DNA of 62,674 bases from Halorhabdus amylolytica. Its GTDB lineage: Archaea; Halobacteriota; Halobacteria; Halobacteriales; Haloarculaceae. Under the pieces are notes generated by a model. The model ran no database searches and had not been told where the DNA came from. It was given only the letters and a program-made list of their open reading frames with translations. Made by a program: the position numbers and the translations under genes. Location: NCBI RefSeq assembly GCF_004944975.1, contig NZ_SPQG01000017.1, positions 1 through 62,674 on the forward strand. The letters are read 5' to 3'. Each line of letters opens with the position of its first letter. Position 1 is the stretch's first letter. Positions 2,511-46,907 of this stretch are shown in pieces.

Positions 2511-2894
2511 TCAGGCGAATCCCAGCAGGTTCGCCAGCGCGAACCCCAACACAGTTGCGAACGCGAAGTGCAACAGTGTCAGCCCAGCCGTTGCCCGCCT
2601 GGAGATACCGTACACCTTCGCGATCGCCATCGCGTCGGCGAGCAGCGTCGTCACGAGGACGACTACCACACCGAGTTCCTGCGAGAGGATCCCCACGCTC
2701 TCCATGCCGTATCGACCGAGGAGGATCGAGACGGCCGCGGGGACGGGACCGACGTAGGCGGCCCGCTGGCTAGGCACCTCCCCGAGGAAGAACGTCGCAG
2801 CGAGGTGCAACGTGACAGCGTAGAACAGCGAGACAGCCAGGAACACGCCGACGAGGGCAGCGAGTCCCCCGCCGATCGGACCAGTCTGTAGCAT
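2511..2894 (-). CDS. small haloarchaeal integral membrane protein
   Basis: A 127-residue protein with about four hydrophobic segments (GGLAALVGVFLAVSLFYAVT, AAYVGPVPAAVSILL, GVVVVLVTTLLADAMAI, TLLHFAFATVLGFALANLL). The frame stays open upstream to 3128, but that extension is low-complexity Arg/Ser sequence, so the ATG at 2894 (MLQTGPIGGG) is preferred. I recognise it only as a haloarchaeal membrane protein of unknown function; no catalytic motif is visible. It lies downstream of the TATA-binding protein gene on the same strand, 127 bp away, and may be read through from it. Confidence 0.6.
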   Translation of the reverse strand: MLQTGPIGGGLAALVGVFLAVSLFYAVTLHLAATFFLGEVPSQRAAYVGPVPAAVSILLGRYGMESVGILSQELGVVVVLVTTLLADAMAIAKVYGISRRATAGLTLLHFAFATVLGFALANLLGFA

Positions 2895-3021
2895 CGTCTC
2901 GTCCCCGGCCGACCCAATCTGTGACGCAATCGCTCCGAGAGGAATGTTCGGGAGCGACAGGAGACGAAAAGACGCGAGTGAGAGCATATCCGCCCTTCGA
3001 CGGGGAGCGGTTTGTCGGTTG

Positions 3022-3582
3022 TTATTCCAGCAGTCCGAGTTCCTCGAGTCGGGAGACGATCTTGTCGACGGCTTCGCGGGCGTCGTCGGGTTCCTTGCCA
3101 CCGGTGATGACGAGCTTGCCCGAGCCAAAGAGCAGGGCGACCACGTCGGGTTCTTCCAGACGATAGACCAGTCCGGGGAACTGCTCGGGTTCGTACTCGA
3201 TGTTCTCCAGGCCGAGCCCGATCGCGATGGCGTTGAGGTTGAGATTGCGACCCAGGTCCGCCGACGTGACGATGTTCTGGACGACGATCTCGGGATCCTC
3301 GTCCACTTGGATCTCCAGGTCCCGCAGTTTGTCGAAGACGATCCGCAAGCTCTGATGGACGTCGTCGGTGCTCTTCGCGCCGGTACAGACGATCTTCCCC
3401 GACCGGAAGATCAGCGCCGCCGACTTGGGATCCTGCGTGCGATAGACGAGGCCGGGGAACTGCTCGGGATCGTAGTCCGCGCCCTCCAGATCCATCGCGA
3501 CGCTCTGCAGATCGAGCTCCTGACCGATCCCGGTCGAAGCAACCACGTTTTCGATGTTGATCGTTTCCTTGGGGTCAGCCAT
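3022..3582 (-). CDS. tbp: TATA-box-binding protein (TBP)
   Basis: A 186-residue general transcription factor that binds the TATA box and, with TFB, recruits RNA polymerase. The protein is the expected direct repeat of two TBP half-saddles (about residues 7-95 and 98-186). Each carries the motif EQFPGLVYR and a strand ending in FRSGKIVCTG or FGSGKLVITG. Haloarchaea usually have several TBP genes; this one has the full length and a normal acidic C-terminus, so it may be the housekeeping copy. It is transcribed away from the tRNA methylase gene. The promoter contains a duplicated TATA module, described separately. Confidence 0.95.
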   Translation of the reverse strand: MADPKETINIENVVASTGIGQELDLQSVAMDLEGADYDPEQFPGLVYRTQDPKSAALIFRSGKIVCTGAKSTDDVHQSLRIVFDKLRDLEIQVDEDPEIVVQNIVTSADLGRNLNLNAIAIGLGLENIEYEPEQFPGLVYRLEEPDVVALLFGSGKLVITGGKEPDDAREAVDKIVSRLEELGLLE

Positions 3583-3599
3583 GATTCGAATAGGAGATC

Positions 3600-3639
3600 G
3601 TATTTAAGTCTTATAAAGGTTGGTATTTAAGATTTATAA
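3600..3639 (-). promoter_or_regulatory. duplicated TATA modules upstream of tbp
   Basis: Two near-identical 17-bp modules at 3600-3616 and 3623-3639 each hold, on the minus strand, TTATAA followed by CTTAAATAC. They differ at two positions and are 23 bp apart. The proximal TATA lies about 29-34 bp before the TBP start codon at 3582, which would give a very short 5' leader. The distal one would give a leader of roughly 25 nt. TBP binding to its own tandem TATA boxes would be a simple autoregulatory arrangement (inference). Confidence 0.6.
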
Positions 3640-3708
3640 GCACCCCAGTATTCGGGGTACAGGCCATTGCAAGGGCGAACGGGCACGAATCGTCTGTCGA
3701 ACTCCCTC

Positions 3709-3790
3709 ATACGGATTATTGTCGTGATGTACCGGTATCCGTCGACTCCCGGGTCGGTGTCATCCGGAAATAATCTACAATAATCTGTAT
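3709..3790 (+). repeat. 82-bp palindromic dispersed element, copy A
   Basis: Starts with ATACGGATTATTGTCG and ends with the near-perfect inverse of that arm. The middle contains a GC-rich palindrome around TCCCGGG. It is about 95% identical to the copies at 8214-8295, 17675-17756 and 33532-33613, and all are exactly 82 bp. It lies between the divergent tbp and tRNA methylase genes. No coding capacity. Confidence 0.85.
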
Positions 3791-3887
3791 CAGTCCCTTC
3801 GGAGCAACACGTTCAGTTCCCTCGGACACGTCTCTTGCGTGGCGGGCAACCGCCAGAGACAAGCGCCGACGGACACTCGCTACGGGC

Positions 3888-4910
3888 GTGTACCTGCTGG
3901 AACTGGCGGGCACCGACGATGCCTTCGCCGCCTACGAGGCGGGGAGCGCCGTCAGCGACGTCTCCGTCGTCGGTGGTGGCCTGGCGACTGCGGGTGCGAT
4001 CACCGACCGCGTCTCTCGACTCGCGTTGACCCATCGTGTCAGCGAGCTTGTCGGGATGACTGCACCGACGATCGAGAGCGCCCGTGAACTCCTCGCGGAG
4101 ACATCGCTCGATCGTACCGGGTCAGTCGCGGTACGGGCACGGGACGTCCGCGGTGCGACGGGTATCAGTACCCAGGCCGTCGAGCGTGAACTCGGCTCGG
4201 TGCTCGTCGACGGGGGTTTCAGGGTGGACCTGGAGGATCCGGACCACGAACTCCGGGCTGTCTTCGCCGGGTCGCCGTCCGCCCAACCGGAGGATGCAGT
4301 CGAACTCATGTCCCACGGGAAGGAACGCGTCTGTGCGTTGGGATGGCTCCTCGACGAGCCCGACCGGCAATTCACCGAGCGCGCACCGACCGATCGTCCG
4401 TTCTTCCAGCCCGGGAGCATGGATCCCACGCTCGCACGCGCGCTGGTTAACGTCGCCGGTGCCCGTCCCGGCGCGACGATCCTCGATCCGATGTGTGGAA
4501 CGGGCGGGCTATTGATCGAGGCGGGATTGGTCGGGGCCGACGTCCTGGGCGCCGATGCCCTGCCGAAGATGGTGCGGGGGACCCGGGAAAACCTGATCGC
4601 GCTCGTCGGAGACAGCTTCGACGTCTGCCGGGGGGACGCGGGACGGCTCCCGTTCCGGGACGAGGCCGTCGACGCGGTCGTCTTCGACGCGCCCTACGGC
4701 CGACAGACGAAGATCACCGGGGACGATCTCGCGTCGTTGCTCGCTGACGCGCTCAGGGAGGCACAGCGACTCGCCCCCCGGGCGGTCGTCGTCGGCGATC
4801 GCCCGTGGGATAGCGTGGCGACCGATGCCGGCTGGACGGTAGACGCGCACTTCGAACGGCGCGTCCATCGGTCGCTGGACCGGCACGTCCTCGTGCTCGA
4901 ACGGGAGTGA
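3888..4910 (+). CDS. trmG10: tRNA (guanine(10)-N2)-dimethyltransferase
   Basis: A 340-residue methyltransferase that makes N2-methyl- or N2,N2-dimethylguanosine at position 10 of tRNAs, as the archaeal Trm-G10/Trm11 family does. The N-terminal 150 residues fit a THUMP RNA-binding domain. The C-terminal Rossmann part has the SAM motif LDPMCGTGGLLIEAG and the catalytic DAPYG motif at residues 267-271, the D/N-PPY signature of amino-group methylases. The start is GTG at 3888, in line with the family start MYLLELAG. The intergenic space before it holds repeat copy A. Confidence 0.9.
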   Translation: MYLLELAGTDDAFAAYEAGSAVSDVSVVGGGLATAGAITDRVSRLALTHRVSELVGMTAPTIESARELLAETSLDRTGSVAVRARDVRGATGISTQAVERELGSVLVDGGFRVDLEDPDHELRAVFAGSPSAQPEDAVELMSHGKERVCALGWLLDEPDRQFTERAPTDRPFFQPGSMDPTLARALVNVAGARPGATILDPMCGTGGLLIEAGLVGADVLGADALPKMVRGTRENLIALVGDSFDVCRGDAGRLPFRDEAVDAVVFDAPYGRQTKITGDDLASLLADALREAQRLAPRAVVVGDRPWDSVATDAGWTVDAHFERRVHRSLDRHVLVLERE

Positions 4911-4941
4911 CTGGTCTCCCGTTCTGGCCGGTACTGACGGC

Positions 4942-6078
4942 TCACCGACCTTCGATGGTTACGTGGTGTTCTGTGACGGCCGTGACTTCCCCGTCGATGG
5001 AGGCGTGGTGGGCGTTGCTGATCGCGTCCTCGGCAGGTCGGGCGATCCGATCACCCACCGTCACGTCGTCGCCGGGGGAGACCGTCGGGTTCGCGTAGTC
5101 GGCGACGCCCTCGTAGTCGGGGTTGCTCAACAGCGGGATCCGGACTCGATCCGGCTCCAGGCCGGTCGGTTCGTCCTCGAGAGTCCGTCCCTTCCAGGCC
5201 TGGGGGCCGAGAATGTTGATGCGGCCGTTGCCGATCCGGTTGTCCTCGGCCAGTGTCTCGTCGATGATCAACAGGCAGTTCGTCCGCTTGGTGACGCCGA
5301 ACATGTCGGGATCCCGTTCAATCTCGAAACTCCAGCCTGGCCCCCCGTCGGCGAGAATCTCGTGGGAGCCGGGCCCGCCGGGTCGGCCCGCGGCCGCGAG
5401 GAGCTCCGTCGCCGGTGTGCCGACAGGTACCCTGAGGAATCGGTGGCGGGGGGTGTCGCCGTCGACGTGGATTAGCTTGTGTGTCACTGGTTTTCCGTCG
5501 CCCAGCGCCAGAGCGATATTGTAGAACGTCTCGGTGTTCTGGACGATCCAGCCGTGATCCATCGGCAGGTCACGGCCGATGACGGTGTCCGCCACCGTCC
5601 GCAACAGGACGCTCTCCATCCCGTACTCGTAGCGGTCCCCGGTGCAGGCAACAATAATGCCTGTTTCTCCGTCGTCGATCGGTAACTCCTCGGGTTCGTA
5701 GACCGTCGCGTCAGTCGCTTCCTCCAGGGCACCGAGCCAGACGCCCCGGTAGTGCTCTTTGGTCCCGATCACGACGCGATCCAGAACCGTCTCCAGGAAT
5801 GCGTCACAGAACGCAGCTAGCGTTTCGGCGTGTTCCCGTCCGATCCAGCGGTCTTTGACGAAGTCCGGTTCGCTCTCCTGGTGATTGAGCAATAGCCCGT
5901 CGACCTCGTCGATGCGCTTCCACTTGGCGTAGGCGGGGAACCCGGCACCGCCGGCCCCGGCTATTCCTGCACGCCTGATGCGATCCACGAGCGGCTGTTC
6001 CCCGAGCCCGAACGACGCTCCGTCCACCGGAGCCTGTTGAGTATCTCCACTCATGGGTGTCCCATCGAGGAGTGACAT
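4942..6078 (-). CDS. RnfC/NuoF-like FMN-binding oxidoreductase subunit, stand-alone
   Basis: A 378-residue protein related to the 51-kDa subunit of NADH dehydrogenase and to RnfC/PduS. The glycine-rich IRRAGIAGAGGAGFPAYAKW near residue 35 is the NADH/FMN-site signature. The family's Rossmann-like core follows, and a short barrel-sandwich hybrid domain (NPTVSPGDDVTVGDRIA) closes the protein. I see no cluster of Cys for an Fe-S centre at the C-terminus and no neighbouring Rnf or Nuo genes, so its electron partner is unknown. An alternative start is ATG at 6054 (MSGDTQQ). Family assignment is firm; physiological role is not known. Confidence 0.75.
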   Translation of the reverse strand: MSLLDGTPMSGDTQQAPVDGASFGLGEQPLVDRIRRAGIAGAGGAGFPAYAKWKRIDEVDGLLLNHQESEPDFVKDRWIGREHAETLAAFCDAFLETVLDRVVIGTKEHYRGVWLGALEEATDATVYEPEELPIDDGETGIIVACTGDRYEYGMESVLLRTVADTVIGRDLPMDHGWIVQNTETFYNIALALGDGKPVTHKLIHVDGDTPRHRFLRVPVGTPATELLAAAGRPGGPGSHEILADGGPGWSFEIERDPDMFGVTKRTNCLLIIDETLAEDNRIGNGRINILGPQAWKGRTLEDEPTGLEPDRVRIPLLSNPDYEGVADYANPTVSPGDDVTVGDRIARPAEDAISNAHHASIDGEVTAVTEHHVTIEGR

Positions 6079-37872: not shown

Positions 37873-38418
37873 TCAGCGGTCGTCGGCGTAGAACCGTTCC
37901 GGGTCGGGGAAGAACTGCTCGGCGTCGTCGTGTTCGATAGTTCCCAGCAGCGTCCCGTCGAGTTTCTTGAGGTGGGTGTACATCTTCTCGCGTTCGACGG
38001 CAGCCTCGACCAGCGCCGAGGCGTTTTGCATGCTGTATGTTCCCGCCACGAACAGGGCGAGGTTTCGCTCCGTGTCGAGACACTCGGTGACGACGAACAC
38101 GTGGCCGGCACTACTCGCCTGGTAGACGATCGTGTCGTCGAACTCGGCACGGTCGGACACCGTCAGAAACTCCTGGGCCTGGTTGCTCGCCACGATATAT
38201 ACGAGCCCCCACTCGTCCGTTTCGCCGGTTTCCGGTGGTTTCGGCGTGGTGTTGTCGGACGTGAGTATCACCGTCTCGAACCCGGAGTCGGCGCGGTCTC
38301 TCGCCATCGCCTCTACGTCCGTCAGGGTCTGTTCCCACCCACTGTGAGCCGTTTCGCTGGTCGCGAGCAACCGCTCGCCATCGTCGAGAGTCACGTCATC
38401 CGGGCCAAGTCTGACCAT
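37873..38418 (-). CDS. haloarchaeal hypothetical protein, acidic soluble
   Basis: A 181-residue protein with alternating strand and helix segments: ETVILTSDNTTP, WGLVYIVASNQAQEFLTV and HVFVVTECLDTERNLALFVA, then KMYTHLKKLDGTLLGTIEHD and a short acidic tail. I know this only as a conserved haloarchaeal protein without known function. It has no signal peptide or metal motif. The start is taken as MVRLGPDD at 38418. The upstream neighbour on the same strand is a membrane protein gene 53 bp away. Confidence 0.55.
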   Translation of the reverse strand: MVRLGPDDVTLDDGERLLATSETAHSGWEQTLTDVEAMARDRADSGFETVILTSDNTTPKPPETGETDEWGLVYIVASNQAQEFLTVSDRAEFDDTIVYQASSAGHVFVVTECLDTERNLALFVAGTYSMQNASALVEAAVEREKMYTHLKKLDGTLLGTIEHDDAEQFFPDPERFYADDR

Positions 38419-38471
38419 GATCGGTGATGTGGACCCACGCAATTAAGCAGTGCCCATCGGAGAAGGCGCAC

Positions 38472-38909
38472 TCACCCGACAGCGACGTCGAATCCGACTT
38501 CGAGAACGAACGACACCCCCAACAGGACCAGGCTGGCGACGAACACCTTCACGTCGCGGCTCACGCGATCCGCGACCGGGAGCGACTCGCCGTCGAGCGG
38601 GGGGACCTGCTGGATGCGGCGTTCGAAGCCGAACTGGGACGTTCCGTCGACACTCAACGAGAACAGCCGTGAGAGCGGCCCACGACCCCGCGGCGACGGT
38701 TGGATCGCGAAGCTCCCGACGCCAAAGAGGAGAAACCCGACAACGAACAGTGCGTACTTCAGCGATAGGAGTCCGTCGCCGACGGCAAAGGCGGGAACCG
38801 CGAGCGCGAGAACGATCCCGCCCGAGGCGGTCAGGACCCAGTAGACGAACTCGACGAACCGGAGCGCGTTACGTGTCACGAGTTCGTCGGGTGATGACGG
38901 GATCGACAT
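38472..38909 (-). CDS. haloarchaeal membrane protein, four helices
   Basis: A 145-residue membrane protein. Hydrophobic segments are FVEFVYWVLTASGGIVLALA, YALFVVGFLLFGVGSFAI and VFVASLVLLGVSFVLEVGF, separated by a charged loop containing GPLSRLFSLSVDG. Function unknown. It overlaps the last 41 bp of the preceding peptide ABC ATPase gene on the same strand, so it is probably translated as the last gene of the importer operon. Later GTG starts exist at 38879, which still overlaps. Confidence 0.55.
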   Translation of the reverse strand: MSIPSSPDELVTRNALRFVEFVYWVLTASGGIVLALAVPAFAVGDGLLSLKYALFVVGFLLFGVGSFAIQPSPRGRGPLSRLFSLSVDGTSQFGFERRIQQVPPLDGESLPVADRVSRDVKVFVASLVLLGVSFVLEVGFDVAVG

Positions 38910-40206
38910 CCTCGTACTCGTCGGTGTGCCGGTGGCAGTAACTCAGGTGGCCCCCGTTGGCGACCTGGTGGAGTTCCGGACGTTGCATGTCACAGACGCC
39001 GTTGAACTCATCGATGAGGTGACTGCGCGCGTCCTCCGGCCGGCCGTCCTTGACCAGTTCCGCGGCAGTCTCGACGTGTTCGCGGATGTCTGCGGGGACG
39101 TCGAGATCGTCGAAGAGGTCCGCCACGGTCTCGTCGATGTCGTCGTACGCCGAGAAGCGACCGACACTCCGTTTGAGGCGGTCGAAGGTCCCGAGACTCA
39201 TCCGTGACCGCTCGCGGACGACCTCCCGATAGCGTTCGATCGCGTCCCAGACCTCGTGCTCGACGTGGGCGTACTCCTCGGGCCGGATTTTGGCCGGACA
39301 GCGCGTCGAGAACTGACAGCCTGTCGGCGGATCCCGCGGGCTCGGGGGGGTTCCCGGCAGGGTGATCCGGTGGGACGACGACGACGGATCGGGATGGGGG
39401 ATCGCCGACAGCAGCGACCGCGTGTAGGGATTGTGTGCGTTCTCGTACAGCTCTTCGGTCTCACCGATCTCCATGATCTTCCCGAGGTACATGACTGCGA
39501 CGCGATCGCATATATGTCTGACAACAGAGAGATCGTGGGCGATAAAGAGATACGTGAGGTCGAACTCCTCCTGTAAGTCCTCCAGTAGCGTGATGATCTT
39601 CGCCTGGACGCTGACGTCCAGCGCGGAGACCGGTTCGTCGAGGACAATGAACTCCGGTTCGAGGGCAAGCGCCCGGGCGATCCCGACCCGCTGGCGCTGG
39701 CCCCCGGAGAACTGGTGGGGGTACCGGTAGTAGTGCTCCTCCCGGAGACCCACAGCGGTCAACAGATCCAGTGCCCGTTCTTGACGGTCCTGTTTGTCCT
39801 TCCAGTCGTGGGCGTCCAGCGGTTCGCGGATGATCTCCCCGATCGTCATCCGGTCGTTGAGGCTGGATTCCGGGTCCTGGAAGACCATCTGGGCGTTCCG
39901 ACGCCAGTCTTTCAGTTCGTCGCCGGTAAGCGTCGTGACGTCCGTCCCGTCGAAGGATATCGTTCCCTCGGTCGCCTCCTCGAGCCGTATCAGTGTCCGA
40001 CCCAGCGTACTCTTCCCGCAGCCCGATTCGCCGACGAGTCCGAGCGTCTCACCGCGTTTGATCGAGAAATTCACGCCGTCGACCGCCTTGACTGACGGCT
40101 GGGCGAACACTCCGCCGCCGCCGTAATGCTTCTTGAGGTTCTCGACCTTGATCATCGTCTCGCCGGCCTGTGCCACGCGTTCCGTCCGCCCGGATACCTT
40201 GCTCAT
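38869..40206 (-). CDS. peptide-type ABC importer ATPase (OppF/DppF) with C-terminal insertion
   Basis: A 445-residue ATPase of the oligopeptide/dipeptide ABC importer. Walker [10 protein letters not shown], signature [15 protein letters not shown], Walker [13 protein letters not shown], and the oligopeptide C-terminal domain with GCQFSTRCP. Between that Cys and the last conserved ones ([12 protein letters not shown]...SYCHRH), about 85-90 extra helical residues are inserted ([20 protein letters not shown] and onward), unlike typical 320-330-residue OppF. The insert splits the Cys region that in homologues may hold an Fe-S cluster. It overlaps the OppD-like gene by 4 bp. Confidence 0.88.
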
Positions 40207-41300
40207 TTGGTATCACGCTCCGTCTCGGATTCGCCGGTCGTCCCACGCGCCCGATGGTGCTCGACGCGATCGGCTTCGGTCATCGCTTCAGGGTAGAGCA
40301 GACAGGCAGCCGTGTGTTCGATCGTCTCGCCGACATCGACGTGGACCGGCGCCACCTCCGAACAGGCCCCGAACGCTTCGGGACAGCGCGGGGCGAACCG
40401 GCAATGATCGGCCGGTTCGTGCGGGGTCGGCACCTCTCCGTCGATGGTGTTGAGCCCTTCCTTCCGGGAGTGTTCGCCCGGAATCGATTCGATGAGGGCG
40501 CGCGTATAGGGGTGTTCCGGGCGCTCGAAGATGTTCTCGACGGAGGCCTTCTCGACGATCTGGCCCGCGTACATCACGTTCACTCGATCGGAGATGTCGG
40601 CGATGACGCCCATATCGTGGGTGATAAACAGGATCGCCAGGTCACGTTCCTCCTGGATGTCCTTCAACAGGTCGAGGATCTGGGCCTGAATGGTCACGTC
40701 CAGGGCCGTCGTCGGTTCGTCCGCGATGAGCAGGTCGGGCTCGCAGGCGAGCATCATCGCGATGACGGCCCGCTGGCGCATCCCGCCCGAGAACTCGTGA
40801 GGATATTCGTCGAGGCGACGCTTCGCGTCCGGGATACCGACCGATTCCAGGAGGTCAGTCGCCTCCTCGACGGCTTCCTGGCCGGTGATGTCGCGATTGA
40901 TCCGTAACGCCTCTCGGATCTGGTTGCCGACCGTGTAGACCGGGTTGAGCGACTGTTGGGGATCCTGGAACACCATCCCGATACCGCTGCCTCGGATCTC
41001 CCGGTACTGGGCGTCGGAGTAGTCGGTCAGTTCCTGGCCCTTGAACCGGATCGACGATCCCTCGAGGACGCGTCCCGGGGATTCGATCAGTCCCATGATC
41101 GACCGGGCAGTGACACTCTTGCCCGAACCGGATTCGCCGACGATACCGACCGTTTCGCCACGGTAGATGTCGAAACTCACGTCGTCGACTGCCCGGATTG
41201 TTTCCCGGTCAGTGAAGAAGGCCGTCTGCAGGTTCCTGACCGACAGCAACGGCTCCTCCTCGCGGCGCGAGAAGTCGGGTTCGAACTGCTCGCCCGACAT
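40203..41300 (-). CDS. peptide-type ABC importer ATPase (OppD/DppD)
   Basis: A 365-residue ATPase, partner of the OppF-like protein. Walker A GESGSGKS, signature [15 protein letters not shown], Walker [13 protein letters not shown], and the C-terminal oligopeptide/dipeptide motif [14 protein letters not shown]. It is of usual length. ATP hydrolysis by the D/F heterodimer drives uptake through the two permeases. The stop codon overlaps the OppF start, and its own start at 41300 overlaps the OppC-like stop, so the operon is tightly coupled. Confidence 0.92.
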
Positions 41301-42844
41301 CAGGCACCGCCTCCTGCGGCGGCTTCCTCGCCTTCGGTCCCTTCGGTCTCGGGATCGATCGCGTCACGGATCCCGTCACCGAACGCGTTCAGACCGGTCA
41401 CCAGCAGGACGATCATCAGTCCGGAGATCAGCGAGATGTGCCAGGACGCCGTCGAGACGTAGTCCTGTCCCAGCGAGACGGCCCGTCCCCAGGCCGGGGT
41501 CGGCGGATTGATCCCCAGCCCGTTGCCCAGGAACGACAGCGCCGAGAGTCCGATGATGATCCCACCCGTCGACATCGACGCATAGACCAGTAGATACCCG
41601 ACGATATACGGGAGCATGTGTTTATGCATGATCGTTCGGGGTCGCTGGCCGAAACTCCGGGCGGCGTCGACCCACTCCTCCTGGGCGACCTGTAACGCGG
41701 GTCCGCGGACCGCCCGCCACAGGAACGGCCACGTGGTGAACGCGAATACCATCGCCAGGATGAACCCGCCGTCGATGATGCCCCCGAGCCAGTGGTTCGC
41801 GAAGACGGCGCTCACCATGATCAAAAGGAGCAATCTCGGCACTGAGACGACCCCGTCCGCGACGGTGAGAACCGTGAGATCGATGGTCCCCGCGTAATAC
41901 GCCGAGATCATCGACAGAACGGCCGCGATCAGCGTGGCGAGTCCGATGGCCATGCCGGAGACGATCAAGGTGATCCGTGCCCCTCCCATGAGGAACGTGA
42001 ACAGATCACGGCCGTTGTTGAGCGTCCCGAACGGATGGAACCGCCCGTAATTGTCGTATGACATCGGCCCGACGTTCTCGCCACCCCCCTTGGACTTCGA
42101 GTTGAAATTGGCGTCGCCGACGGGGATCGACTCGACTTCACCCGTTTCGCCGTTGTAGTATTCGATCTCGTAACTGTAGGAACTCTGAATGTTCTGTTCG
42201 ACGGTCGTGGGTCCGAGTGCCGGTCCGAACACAGCCATCGTCAGGTACAGCACGAGAACGAGAATACCGAATTGTCCCCAACGATGGCCCCGGAGTCGCC
42301 CGACCATGTCGTCGGTCGGCGTCCAGTCGGCCTGCCGGTAGTGCTCGCGGTAGACCTGCCAGCCGCGGAACACCCAGTAACTGAGAAATAGGGCGTACAC
42401 GACGAGGAGGGTGAAGCGGAGTCCCCACGCTACGGCGGGTTCAAGCCCCATGAATGTCCCCTGCCAGGGACCGTTCGGGCCGAGTTTGTGTCCCTGGTTC
42501 GGGATCACCTCCCTGCTCAACAGCGTCGGGAGGGCGGCGGCCGCGTCGGCGACGCCGACGAGGAACTTCGAAACGCCCTGCTGGAGATCGACGACCGCCT
42601 CGGCCGCCCCCTCGGAGATAAATCCTAACAGGATATCGAAAAGCGCCGTCACGCCGACGAAAGCCCGTTCGACCGTCGCGATCGTCAGCGACGCGTACGT
42701 GCCGAACTCCACAGCGATCAGGACGATCAGTACGGTGGCCCACTCGAGGAACGGTCGGGGGGCCTCGGCGATCCGCGTCCGCACCGGGATGTTCTCGTAG
42801 CCGGTCAATTCATCGCGCGTCGTGGTCGTGTCGGTATCCGACAT
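41300..42844 (-). CDS. peptide-type ABC importer permease (OppC/DppC) with extended N-terminus
   Basis: A 514-residue membrane protein. The C-terminal part (about residue 270 on) is a normal binding-protein-dependent permease domain, with the EAA motif region EEWVDAARSFGQRPRTIMHKHMLP. Ahead of it lie about 200 extra residues with two hydrophobic segments (FLEWATVLIVLIAVEFGTYA and WGLRFTLLVVYALFLSYWVF), plus the usual first helix at about residue 195. Typical OppC is about 300 residues. The ATG at 42844 is preferred; a GTG at 42853 would overlap the oppB stop by 4 bp. Confidence 0.85.
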   Translation of the reverse strand: MSDTDTTTTRDELTGYENIPVRTRIAEAPRPFLEWATVLIVLIAVEFGTYASLTIATVERAFVGVTALFDILLGFISEGAAEAVVDLQQGVSKFLVGVADAAAALPTLLSREVIPNQGHKLGPNGPWQGTFMGLEPAVAWGLRFTLLVVYALFLSYWVFRGWQVYREHYRQADWTPTDDMVGRLRGHRWGQFGILVLVLYLTMAVFGPALGPTTVEQNIQSSYSYEIEYYNGETGEVESIPVGDANFNSKSKGGGENVGPMSYDNYGRFHPFGTLNNGRDLFTFLMGGARITLIVSGMAIGLATLIAAVLSMISAYYAGTIDLTVLTVADGVVSVPRLLLLIMVSAVFANHWLGGIIDGGFILAMVFAFTTWPFLWRAVRGPALQVAQEEWVDAARSFGQRPRTIMHKHMLPYIVGYLLVYASMSTGGIIIGLSALSFLGNGLGINPPTPAWGRAVSLGQDYVSTASWHISLISGLMIVLLVTGLNAFGDGIRDAIDPETEGTEGEEAAAGGGA

Positions 42845-42849
42845 CGATG

Positions 42850-43941
42850 TCACCTCTCAGTGTCCTCCAACGTGATCCGCGGGTCGATGAACGTATACAG
42901 GATGTCCTGGGAGATGTTGAGCGTGATATTGACGACAATGAAGAGGAATACCAGCGCCATCACGAGCGGGATATCCGGACCCAGCATCCCCCGAAAGAAC
43001 ATGTTCCCGAGCCCCCTGATCGAGAACACCTTCTCGACGAGAACCGAACCGCCGATCAGCAGGTAGAACTCGCCCATGATCACCGGCAACAGGGGAATGA
43101 GGGCGTTCCGACCGACGTGTTTCGTGACGATCCGCCGTCCCGAGACTCCCTTTGCCTTGGCTGTCTGGACGTACTTCGAGTTGATGCTCTCGAGGACGGC
43201 TGTCCGACCGATGCGGATCTCGTTACCCATCGACGCCGAGCCGAGTACCAGCGCCGCCGGGAAGATCCACTTGACCGCGATCGCCAGGTTCTCCAAGTTC
43301 GGGATCGGTATCCAGAGCGCCTCGAGGAGCGGCACGCCGGCGAAGACGTGAGCGCTACCGAACATGTTCCCGAGGGCGTCCGGTGTCCCGATGACGTCCG
43401 TCTGAATGAGAAGATCCTGATAAAACGAGAGGGCCCCGCCGGCCGAGAGCACGCCGACGAACATCACGGCGAGCCAGAAGTTGGGCATCGCCCGCCAGAT
43501 GATACCGCCGCCCGAGGTGATGTAATCACGCCAGGTGTTCGCCCGGAGGCCGGCGTACAGGCCCCCAGGGATGCCGAACGCGAGGGCGATGACGACCGAC
43601 CAGAAGCCGAGCCACAGCGTCGCAGGCATCCGGTTGAGAATGAGATCAGTCACCGCGGTGCCACGCTGGATGATCCACGACTGGCCGAAGTCCAACGTCA
43701 CCAGGTCGGTGACGACCTTGAAGTACTGTGACCACAGTGGCACCGGCGTCCCGTCGGGGTAAATGATACCGAGAGCGATCTTGAGCTGACGGACGTCCGC
43801 CGGCGTCGCGTCCTGGCCGAGGATGTTCAAGACCGGGTCGATCGGCCCCCGGTACATGATGAGGAAGCTCATCGTAATGCCGAACAGGAATACCGGGACC
43901 GCGAGCAGGAGCCGCTTTCCGAGATAGAGCAATCGGTTCAT
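42850..43941 (-). CDS. peptide-type ABC importer permease (OppB/DppB)
   Basis: A 363-residue permease with six or seven hydrophobic helices. The first spans RLLLAVPVFLFGITMSFLIM. The EAA-like cytoplasmic loop is in KYVQTAKAKGVSGRRIVTKH, and the last part reads GDVLxx-like ALVFLFIVVNITLNISQDIL followed by YTFIDPRI. It is the first gene of the permease-ATPase group and is transcribed from the 265-bp gap behind the binding-protein gene. It forms the translocation pore with the OppC-like protein. Confidence 0.9.
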   Translation of the reverse strand: MNRLLYLGKRLLLAVPVFLFGITMSFLIMYRGPIDPVLNILGQDATPADVRQLKIALGIIYPDGTPVPLWSQYFKVVTDLVTLDFGQSWIIQRGTAVTDLILNRMPATLWLGFWSVVIALAFGIPGGLYAGLRANTWRDYITSGGGIIWRAMPNFWLAVMFVGVLSAGGALSFYQDLLIQTDVIGTPDALGNMFGSAHVFAGVPLLEALWIPIPNLENLAIAVKWIFPAALVLGSASMGNEIRIGRTAVLESINSKYVQTAKAKGVSGRRIVTKHVGRNALIPLLPVIMGEFYLLIGGSVLVEKVFSIRGLGNMFFRGMLGPDIPLVMALVFLFIVVNITLNISQDILYTFIDPRITLEDTER

Positions 43942-44206: not shown

Positions 44207-46084
44207 CTACTCCTGGTAGTTCGACTCGTAGCCCTCGGCGCCGCCCGGGAAGACCTGCTTGGGAGTCAGGTGGAAGGCCGCTTCACCCCGGCCCTTGAAG
44301 ACGCTCTCGACGAAGTCCTCACGGGTGATCACGTAGGCCATGGCCTGACGGACCGGCTTGGGTACCTTCTCCATGTGGAACCCGAGGTAGTACGTGTTGA
44401 TCGACGGCGTCGTCGACATGCTCACCGTCTGCTCTCCCTCCATCGGGCCGTACGTGCCCAGGACCTGGCCCCGTTCGTTGGTCGTCTCCTCGGTAGCGAG
44501 TTCGGGGTTGTACTGTGGCGTCGGGATCTCCGCCACGTCGGCGTTCTCGTTCAGGAAGTAGCTGTACCGGGTGCTGTCCTCGGTGATGATCGCTTCGTGG
44601 GTCTCCGCGAACGACGGGGTCTCGCCGTGGTAGTCCTCGAAGGCCGTGGCGCGGAACTCCCCACCGTTGCCCTCTTGCCACTCCTCGAAGACGAATGGCC
44701 CACAGCCGACGGGATTCGTCGAAAACTCGTCCCAGGCCATCTCGCCCTCGTAGCCCTCGACGTCGCCCACGATGCCCTCCGGGACGACGGAGAACGCGGA
44801 GTATGCGAGCACTTCGAGCGCGTAGCCGAACGGGCTGGAGAGCGTGACAGTGAACGTGTAATCGCCCGTCGCCTCGACGGCAGTCGAACCGGAGACGACG
44901 TTGCCCTCCTCGTCTGTCTCGTGTTCGATCTGCAGTACCGATAGCGGGAAGTACGTGTTCGTGGAGTTGTCCGACTCGATCAGCCGCCGGAACGAATAGA
45001 CGACATCGTCGGCGGTGACCTCTCCGTAGTCGCCGTGGAACTGAATCCCCTCTTTCAGCGTGAACTCGTACTCCGTGAGATCGTCGCTGACGGTGTAGTC
45101 CTCGACGAGAAGGGGTTTGACCTCCGTCGTCCCGTTGACGTAGTTCATCGGCGCGTCGAACATGTCCATGATCTTGTTGCCACTCTCGGTGTTCCCCGAG
45201 GCGATCGGATCCAGGGAACTATACGTGCCCGAGATGCCGTTGAGGGTGCCGTCACCCTCTAGCCCGTTGACGGACATGTTCACCTTCGCACGCGATGGTC
45301 CCATCCCGCCCGGCGGATCGTAGTCGACGTGGTCGTACCAGAACCGCTGGTCGACCTCGTGATAGACTGGCAGGAGTGCGGCCGAATCCCACAGCGCCCG
45401 CTCGATCTTGACGGTGGCGTCGTCGCGGACGCTTTGGGCCTCGTCGGTCAGCTCGGGGTTGTTCTGGATCCGGTCGAACTGTTTGGTGACGTACTGGCGG
45501 ATGGCCTCCTCACCCTTCGTGTCCTCGGACCAGAACAGCCTCGCACCGTTTGGCGTATACCCCTCGGCGTCGTAGATCGTGTTTTCGGGGTCGACCAGCT
45601 GGAGAAAGTTCTGGGCGGCTGGGTAGTCGGCGATCCAGCCGAGAGTAAACGCCTCGTGGTTGCCGTTCTCGGTCGTCTCCAGCAGCGACCCGAAATCTGC
45701 GTCGCTGATGTTCATGTTGATGTACGCCGAGTCCAGGCGGGCCCGGATCGTGTTCGCCATCTCCTCCCAAGCCCCGCTCTGGTACTGCAACCAGTCGAGG
45801 TTGTATCGATTGTTCGGGCCGTATCCAGCTTCCTCCATCACCCGCTGAGCCTCGCCGACCATCGTCTCGTTGATACCGTACGGGTAACTGCTCGGGGGCT
45901 GGTAGTCGCCACCCTCGTCGGTCGTCCCTTCGCCGCCGCCCGTGTCGGTCCCGCTCTCGGTCTCTTCGGGCTCCTCGGATTCGGTATCTCCTCCACCGCT
46001 ACAGCCGGCCAACCCGACGCCGACCGTCGCTGCTCCGGTGGCCTTGAGGAATCGCCGTCGATTCATACCGTTGTCGTCGGACAT
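44207..46084 (-). CDS. peptide-type ABC importer substrate-binding lipoprotein, circularly permuted
   Basis: A 625-residue extracellular binding protein of the SBP_bac_5 (DppA/OppA) family. It starts with a Tat motif (NRRRFLKATG) and a lipobox Cys28. The order of segments is unusual. Residues about 66-262 (INETMVGEAQRVMEEAGYGP, then AFTLGWIADYPAAQNFLQLV) correspond to the C-terminal part of canonical proteins. Residues about 278-625 (GTYSSLDPIASGNTESGNKI, EYEFTLKEGIQFH, TADDVVYSFRRL and finally VRQAMAYVITREDFVESVFK) correspond to the canonical N-terminal two thirds. A 30-residue acidic linker follows the lipobox. Upstream of the permease genes with a 265-bp gap. Confidence 0.85.
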   Translation of the reverse strand: MSDDNGMNRRRFLKATGAATVGVGLAGCSGGGDTESEEPEETESGTDTGGGEGTTDEGGDYQPPSSYPYGINETMVGEAQRVMEEAGYGPNNRYNLDWLQYQSGAWEEMANTIRARLDSAYINMNISDADFGSLLETTENGNHEAFTLGWIADYPAAQNFLQLVDPENTIYDAEGYTPNGARLFWSEDTKGEEAIRQYVTKQFDRIQNNPELTDEAQSVRDDATVKIERALWDSAALLPVYHEVDQRFWYDHVDYDPPGGMGPSRAKVNMSVNGLEGDGTLNGISGTYSSLDPIASGNTESGNKIMDMFDAPMNYVNGTTEVKPLLVEDYTVSDDLTEYEFTLKEGIQFHGDYGEVTADDVVYSFRRLIESDNSTNTYFPLSVLQIEHETDEEGNVVSGSTAVEATGDYTFTVTLSSPFGYALEVLAYSAFSVVPEGIVGDVEGYEGEMAWDEFSTNPVGCGPFVFEEWQEGNGGEFRATAFEDYHGETPSFAETHEAIITEDSTRYSYFLNENADVAEIPTPQYNPELATEETTNERGQVLGTYGPMEGEQTVSMSTTPSINTYYLGFHMEKVPKPVRQAMAYVITREDFVESVFKGRGEAAFHLTPKQVFPGGAEGYESNYQE

Positions 46085-46370: not shown

Positions 46371-46461
46371 CACGCCGTATACACGACGCTCATGCGTGGG
46401 TACCGGCCAAAAACGAGCGGGTCCTGGCGCCCTCGTGTATGGCGAGGGAGCCCCCTCTCTC

Positions 46462-46832
46462 GGCGGATTTGAACCGCGAGTACTCGCTTCGCTCGTCCTC
46501 TGGGCTCAAACCGCCGCCTACTTTGACGGCGTTGACGACTCGCCTCGCCCGTCGTGTTGCGCCGTCAGAAGATGGGTTGGGGCGTCCTCGTGAGCGAAGC
46601 GAACGAGGGCTCGGAAGAGCGAAGCTCTTCCGGTGGATTTGAACCGCCTGAACGTCGCTCGCTATCGCTCGCTCGTTCCGTGTTTCAAATCCGTATGAAC
46701 CATCTGCCGCTCACGGATTTGTTCGCGGCAAAAGTGGGTTGGGGCGGATTTGAACCGCGAGGACTCGCTTCGCTCGTCCTCTGGGCTCAAACCGCCGAAA
46801 CCATCCGCTCCTCACGTCCGTTCGTCGCAGGA
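46462..46832. repeat. cluster of palindromes built from the tRNA-Val 3' end
   Basis: The first 24 bases of the tRNA gene region (its 3' end, 46833-46856) recur exactly at 46735-46758. Shorter pieces occur at 46462-46477, 46573-46584 and 46632-46648. A 55-bp unit at 46462-46516 is repeated at 46743-46797 with one mismatch. Each unit folds back on itself (GGATTTGAA paired with TTCAAATCC at 46635-46643 and 46683-46691; GAGGAC with GTCCTC). No integrase gene is seen in the window. Confidence 0.65.
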
Positions 46833-46907
46833 TGGGTTGGGGCGGATTTGAACCGCCGACCTCCTCCATGTCAAGGAGGTGTCATAACCAACCTAGACCA
46901 CCAACCC
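46833..46907 (-). tRNA. tRNA-Val (GAC)
   Basis: A 75-nt cloverleaf on the minus strand. The 7-bp acceptor stem GGGTTGG pairs with CCAACCC, followed by discriminator A and no encoded CCA. The anticodon stem CCTCC/GGAGG holds the loop TTGACAT with anticodon GAC (Val, codons GUC/GUU). The T arm is GGCGGTTCAAATCCGCC. No intron or encoded CCA is present. Palindromes derived from its 3' end flank it. Confidence 0.93.

Follow-up and report, generated by a model that had tools for sequence, protein, structure and literature searches.

Among known systems, the proteins which come closest to the one described here are DppA, OppA and MppA from E. coli (SBP_bac_5, cluster C), with which it shares the homology of the folded part, the DppA residue Asp408, retained as Asp153, and the operon partners, and from which it differs in that its segments are exchanged, with termini near DppA 323/327, and in that it is a Tat lipoprotein. 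The nearest precedent for such an exchange is given by TpMglB-2 (Tp0684) from Treponema pallidum, a naturally permuted ABC-importer binding lipoprotein, assigned to "type Ic / cluster Bc", for which the authors raised tethering as a possible reason for the permutation (PMC4990184). Unlike the protein described here, TpMglB-2 is a cluster B sugar receptor, in which the strands of one lobe were moved and for which no recurrence is known to be reported. For haloarchaea, the dpp operon of H. salinarum was reported to be led by dppA and to be transcribed and conditionally regulated (PMC4299497). No description of permuted SBP_bac_5 proteins was found in a literature search carried out mostly without subscription journals, and among the Pfam and NCBIfam matches to permuted proteins there is no permuted model, only partial matches.

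The window analyzed here, a stretch of 62,674 nucleotides from Halorhabdus amylolytica, encodes a circularly permuted substrate-binding lipoprotein as a complete coding sequence on the minus strand (44207..46084; ATG at 46084, stop codon at 44207-44209), comprising 625 codons and hence 625 amino acids plus stop. The initial annotation had placed this gene correctly, the strand being minus, and had read its product as a permuted DppA/OppA fold, a reading which is supported by the work described below. Residues 1-28 (46001..46084, minus) form a Tat signal and lipobox (RRRFLK...LAGC), with the Tat motif RRRFLK at residues 9-14 and the lipobox LAGC at residues 25-28, thus still at the true N-terminus as had been proposed; the match to Pfam TAT_signal (4.3e-4) is slightly below the family cut-off. 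The lipobox is connected to the folded part by an acidic low-complexity linker (residues 29-65; 45890..46000, minus). Next, profile searches assigned residues 66-270 (45275..45889, minus) to the C-terminal third of DppA/OppA, as a homologous segment that corresponds to positions 343-542 of the canonical profile and is now located in front. It is followed by a linker (residues 271-278; 45251..45274, minus), through which the old C-terminus is connected to the old N-terminus, and by the segment homologous to DppA 1-323 (residues 279-625; 44210..45250, minus; canonical profile 1-342), assigned on the basis of sequence and structure matches and now located at the end. The initial annotation had placed the start of the typical first SBP_bac_5 segments at about residue 278 and had recognized the normally later segment ahead of it, at residues 66-170; both assignments agree with these boundaries, residues 66-270 matching DppA/OppA from about 327 onwards. 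Solely the end of the chain needs correction, as it had been given as VRQAMAYVITREDFVESVFK, while the chain continues for about 28 more residues, to PGGAEGYESNYQE.

The swapped order is documented by separate alignments of both halves, the procedure which had been suggested to examine the reading. Using phmmer against the PDB, residues 295-612 matched DppA 20-315 strongly and residues 107-161 matched DppA 362-416, the latter match being weak by itself. A profile built from residues 66-270 of 11 orthologs matched MppA 340-433 (1.8e-10), OppA 338-433 (9.6e-10) and DppA 327-417 (8e-5). Family membership is given by PF00496 (5e-57, 194 bits, cut-off 32), whereby the best of two Pfam SBP_bac_5 stretches aligns residues 321-623 to positions 1-262 of 368. 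When compared to a profile of 547 positions built from haloarchaeal relatives without the permutation, the window protein was found to match positions 343-542 first and then 1-342, so that positions 1-542 of 547 are covered once, with both halves present and almost no loss. The protein thus departs from the canonical SBP_bac_5 order, with the C segment ahead of the N segment, a departure which leaves the homology unaffected: both segments of one homolog occur once each, their order is exchanged and the old termini are joined. A full-length co-linear alignment to DppA, which would have contradicted the reading, was not found, and chance is excluded by the E-values and by the fact that about 39 loci have conserved this order. 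The circular permutation of the window protein is confirmed.

It may be argued that two independent proteins, or two different paralogs contributing the C-terminal third and the N-terminal two thirds, respectively, were fused in this open reading frame without any permutation, given that the two parts differ in length and that Pfam reports two separate stretches. However, the canonical profile is covered once and without duplication, all four sub-segments of the protein possess near-equal identity (51-53% each) to canonical relatives, and either half alone yields the same clade in phylogenetic trees (see below). Furthermore, AlphaFold2, provided with the canonical halves as separate half-length rows, predicted a single confident fold (pLDDT 95.7, pTM 0.92), with the cross-half information coming from 18 permuted rows only; an earlier model, obtained from a shallow alignment of 23 close orthologs, had reached a pLDDT of 54. 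The structure prediction which had been called for therefore gave one fold rather than two independent proteins, and the fusion explanation is considered very improbable. Sequential structure aligners superposed model residues 215-567 (or 221-566) on DppA 1-323 (Z 23.8, rmsd 2.8, 299 residues); that this match ends at the joint is expected of a permutation, as the full match lies beyond a sequential search.

Proteins of the same order, termed type A, were identified in about 39 haloarchaeal loci with 48-87% identity, a count in which some genomes appear twice owing to two search routes. They derive from many genera, among them Halorhabdus, Halorubrum, Halolamina, Halonotius, Haloquadratum, Halapricum, Halobacterium, Halosimplex and Halosegnis. 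The genome of the window is a draft of 26 contigs, which would leave room for an assembly or annotation artefact, but complete genomes assembled as a single contig, as well as numerous independent assemblies, show the same order across this identity range, hence the probability of an artefact is regarded as negligible. Unpermuted haloarchaeal relatives, proposed earlier as a means to time the event, are common (45-51% identity) and allow the event to be placed; examples are L098 (Halospeciosus) and L108 (Haloferax gibbonsii), DppA-like proteins which resemble the window protein in identity and leader type but possess the canonical order and are co-linear with bacterial OppA. In a tree of reordered cores, type A forms one clade (100/97), which includes the two type C proteins L036 and L096, and trees from either half recover this same clade with supports of 96 and 93. 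A single origin of type A is supported, which predates the radiation comprising Halorhabdus, Halorubrum, Haloquadratum, Halobacterium and Halosimplex.

As had been noticed before, the lipoprotein gene is followed by a full importer operon in the order SBP-B-C-D-F, whose two permeases and two oligopeptide-type ATPases were identified by Pfam and which links the window gene to a DppBCDF-type importer. All its genes reside on the minus strand: a DppB-like permease (42850..43941; BPD_transp_1 7e-30), a DppC-like permease (41300..42853; BPD_transp_1 7e-20, OppC_N), a DppD-like ATPase (40203..41300; ABC_tran 2e-32, oligo_HPY) and a DppF-like ATPase (38869..40206; ABC_tran 1e-36, oligo_HPY). The sixth gene of the cluster (37873..38442, minus) encodes a DUF7529 protein (Pfam 1e-55) and was assigned by synteny as well, since a DUF7529 gene also follows dppF in the dpp operons of Halorhabdus salina and Halorubrum distributum; its product is possibly the counterpart of VNG2342H from the H. 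salinarum dpp operon. The SBP-B-C-D-F order is shared by 13 of the 14 loci with long flanks, the canonical G335 being among the 13 and a kinase fusion being the exception, and by further type A orthologs compared by synteny. In H. salinarum DSM 3754, L085 is of type A and possesses the same operon layout as the window; judged by this layout rather than by a locus-tag match, L085 is probably the published dppA. Just upstream of the operon a tRNA-Val gene is located (46833-46907, minus), the T-arm end of which, GGTTCAAATCCRCC, occurs three more times, at 46461, 46631 and 46742 (region 46461-46907; chance expectation 0.01), and these copies resemble attachment sites that integrating elements left behind repeatedly.

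Asp153, encoded at 45626..45628 (minus), was aligned by phmmer with DppA Asp408, which we take to contact the amino group of the ligand, and was found to be invariant across 30 type A orthologs (column D88 of alignment A1). Within the genus Halorhabdus the type A gene is under purifying selection, dN being 0.08-0.12 as compared to a dS of 0.60-0.64 in pairs (dN/dS about 0.12-0.19). The designation as a DppA equivalog (NF043070) is unwarranted on this ground, as the window protein reaches 87 bits with the curated cut-off being 1005 bits, and searches by family and by PDB sequence matched it to cluster C proteins rather than to cluster B proteins of the TpMglB-2 type. One might assume that permuted proteins are sensors or scavenging lipoproteins next to which importer genes are located by chance, as a type B protein fused to a kinase-like domain without importer genes nearby could indicate. 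This was judged to be improbable, because the window gene and other permuted genes whose flanks were examined head a complete B-C-D-F operon and because the ligand aspartate is invariant in type A. It is thus held with high confidence that the window protein functions as a DppA-type (SBP_bac_5, cluster C) ABC-importer receptor in circularly permuted type A form, its peptide specificity and lipid modification being inferred. In this form, about 8-10 linker residues connect the old N- and C-termini, new termini were opened at the loop between the equivalents of DppA 323 and 327, and the leader (Tat/lipobox) was kept in front, whereby the protein would be exported folded and become lipid-anchored. 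A peptide-like ligand would then be bound between the lobes and passed to the DppBCDF importer encoded downstream.

Four breakpoints (A, B, C and D) were found within the SBP_bac_5 family, with A, B and C occurring among close haloarchaeal relatives; this recurrence was beyond the reach of the initial annotation. The type B order comprises canonical profile positions of about 466-546 followed by 2-463 (39 loci), and the type C order positions 110-545 followed by 2-110 (4 loci). When 313 genomes of the taxonomic order were searched with a fused-joint profile, 53 spanning matches were obtained in 52 genomes (E <= 3.5e-72), whereas the other matches listed were weaker (>= 6.7e-51) and covered one side of the joint only, the forms thus being cleanly separated. 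Two type B loci came along with unusual frames. L051/L270 (G027:C1, about 2520400-2523300) encodes 975 amino acids, in which a kinase-like domain (Pkinase of Pfam with 2e-5, under the cut-off) precedes a hydrophobic stretch and a type B permuted SBP, with no importer genes in its neighbourhood, and is possibly a receptor kinase using the permuted SBP as sensor. In the operon of the type B protein L050, the frame of the DppF-like ATPase comprises 832 codons (L263, about 2578-5070).

The distribution of these types could in principle go back to a single ancient permutation or to a few of them, their descendants being scattered over the tree owing to recombination, horizontal transfer or tree error. 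Haloarchaea exchange genes freely, several branches are weakly supported and that of the type C protein L259 is long, which would favour this explanation. However, a single event cannot give four different breakpoints, and the phylogenetic data point in the same direction. L036 and L096 (type C) reside inside the type A clade (100/98), which means that an A protein was permuted a second time. L192 (type C) is sister to the canonical L098 (100/97), and L259 stands separately on its long branch, a single clade of both being rejected (p 1.6e-5), as is one of all type C proteins (p 1e-41). Type C consequently has three origins, one of them within the A clade. L050, for its part, groups with the canonical L134/L129 (100/100); a single clade was rejected for all type B proteins (p 3e-4) and also for the main type B proteins when L050 was left out (p 0.007), the latter implying an additional gain or a reversal. 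Segment-wise identity rejected the possibility that recombination with another permutant had given L050 or L192 its order, as in both proteins each of the four sub-segments is closest to canonical proteins.

A phylum-wide search found the joint to be matched also in other SBP_bac_5 subfamilies, which led to type D. Here, the breakpoint is located at about 372/373 of the canonical profile, meaning that the chain ends after the helix equivalent to profile position 372 and starts with what comes next. Like in type A, the C-part precedes the N-part behind the leader (e.g., L284 and L331), but the breakpoint differs and type D constitutes a separate, old clade. The joint profile of type D gave matches in 138 of the 209 haloarchaeal genomes sampled, with joint-spanning matches in at least 102 of the 209 by hand count from the rows listed. 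When a type D protein was compared with PDB sequences, the matches covered one half at a time. L284 and L285 are two type D SBP genes close together on the same strand, sharing about 52% identity. Type D was also identified on alphaproteobacterial plasmids, where it heads importer genes, Pfam positions 2-285 form the extreme C-terminal part of the protein and the archaeal type D profile is matched over its full length (E 3e-84 to 5e-108); the plasmid records name these proteins plainly "ABC transporter substrate-binding protein". The alphaproteobacterial genes L330 and L332 adjoin M28 and M20 peptidase genes, and L330 hydantoinase/oxoprolinase genes as well, neighbours which hint at the ligands of these receptors. 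L331 and L332 possess a signal sequence but no evident lipobox, which weakens the idea that permutation serves membrane tethering. Except for L280/L281, archaeal and bacterial type D proteins form one clade (100/99), in a tree whose midpoint root does not fix the polarity between old type D and the canonical form.

L280/L281 stem from a recent event within one archaeal genus, where they are placed beside the unpermuted L292/L293 (100/99) with about 85% identity at the protein level and 79-80% at the DNA level, the DNA consisting of two blocks in swapped order; this within-genus case also speaks against few ancient permutations, which are altogether deemed unlikely. About 10 bases are gone at the new ends there and the leader was retained, and no clear extra body fragment was found beside the L280 event. 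The recent type D gene (L280/L281, L294/L295) is divergent to its B-C-D-F operon, most canonical relatives being co-directional.

In sum, about eight origins were counted, namely A, C1 (from A), C2, C3, B1, B2, old D and recent D, with the non-monophyly of B1 adding one change more. Most likely, as we infer, the gene body was duplicated in frame and in tandem behind a single leader and then trimmed at both ends, an origin which is favoured as it would explain that the leader is retained, that no segment is lost and that the ends lie in variable stretches. A tandem in-frame double gene, i.e., the intermediate, was not found among the loci examined. Canonical SBPs with long extensions do occur in frames of 780-880 codons, located C-terminally in L052 and L055 and N-terminally in L053, L054 and L101; the longer frames L052-L055 each hold one canonical SBP plus extensions and no doubled body.

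As a rule, a natural circular permutation is a single old event, seen only once divergence has erased its steps. With about eight or more events at four loops, including three reused loops, one re-permutation, one within-genus event and an old clade spanning Archaea and Alphaproteobacteria, circular permutation is likely to be a routine evolutionary step of SBP_bac_5 receptors which partial-match profiles have hidden. Many haloarchaeal and some alphaproteobacterial receptors are hence only partially modelled by current family profiles. The family offers replicate events of differing age, reused breakpoints, unpermuted sisters within one genus and hosts amenable to culture (Halobacterium salinarum), whereby both the DNA-level origin of permutations and the effect of moving the anchored terminus on receptor function become testable, and it is thus unusually suited to examine by what steps, and for what reason, proteins are re-cut.
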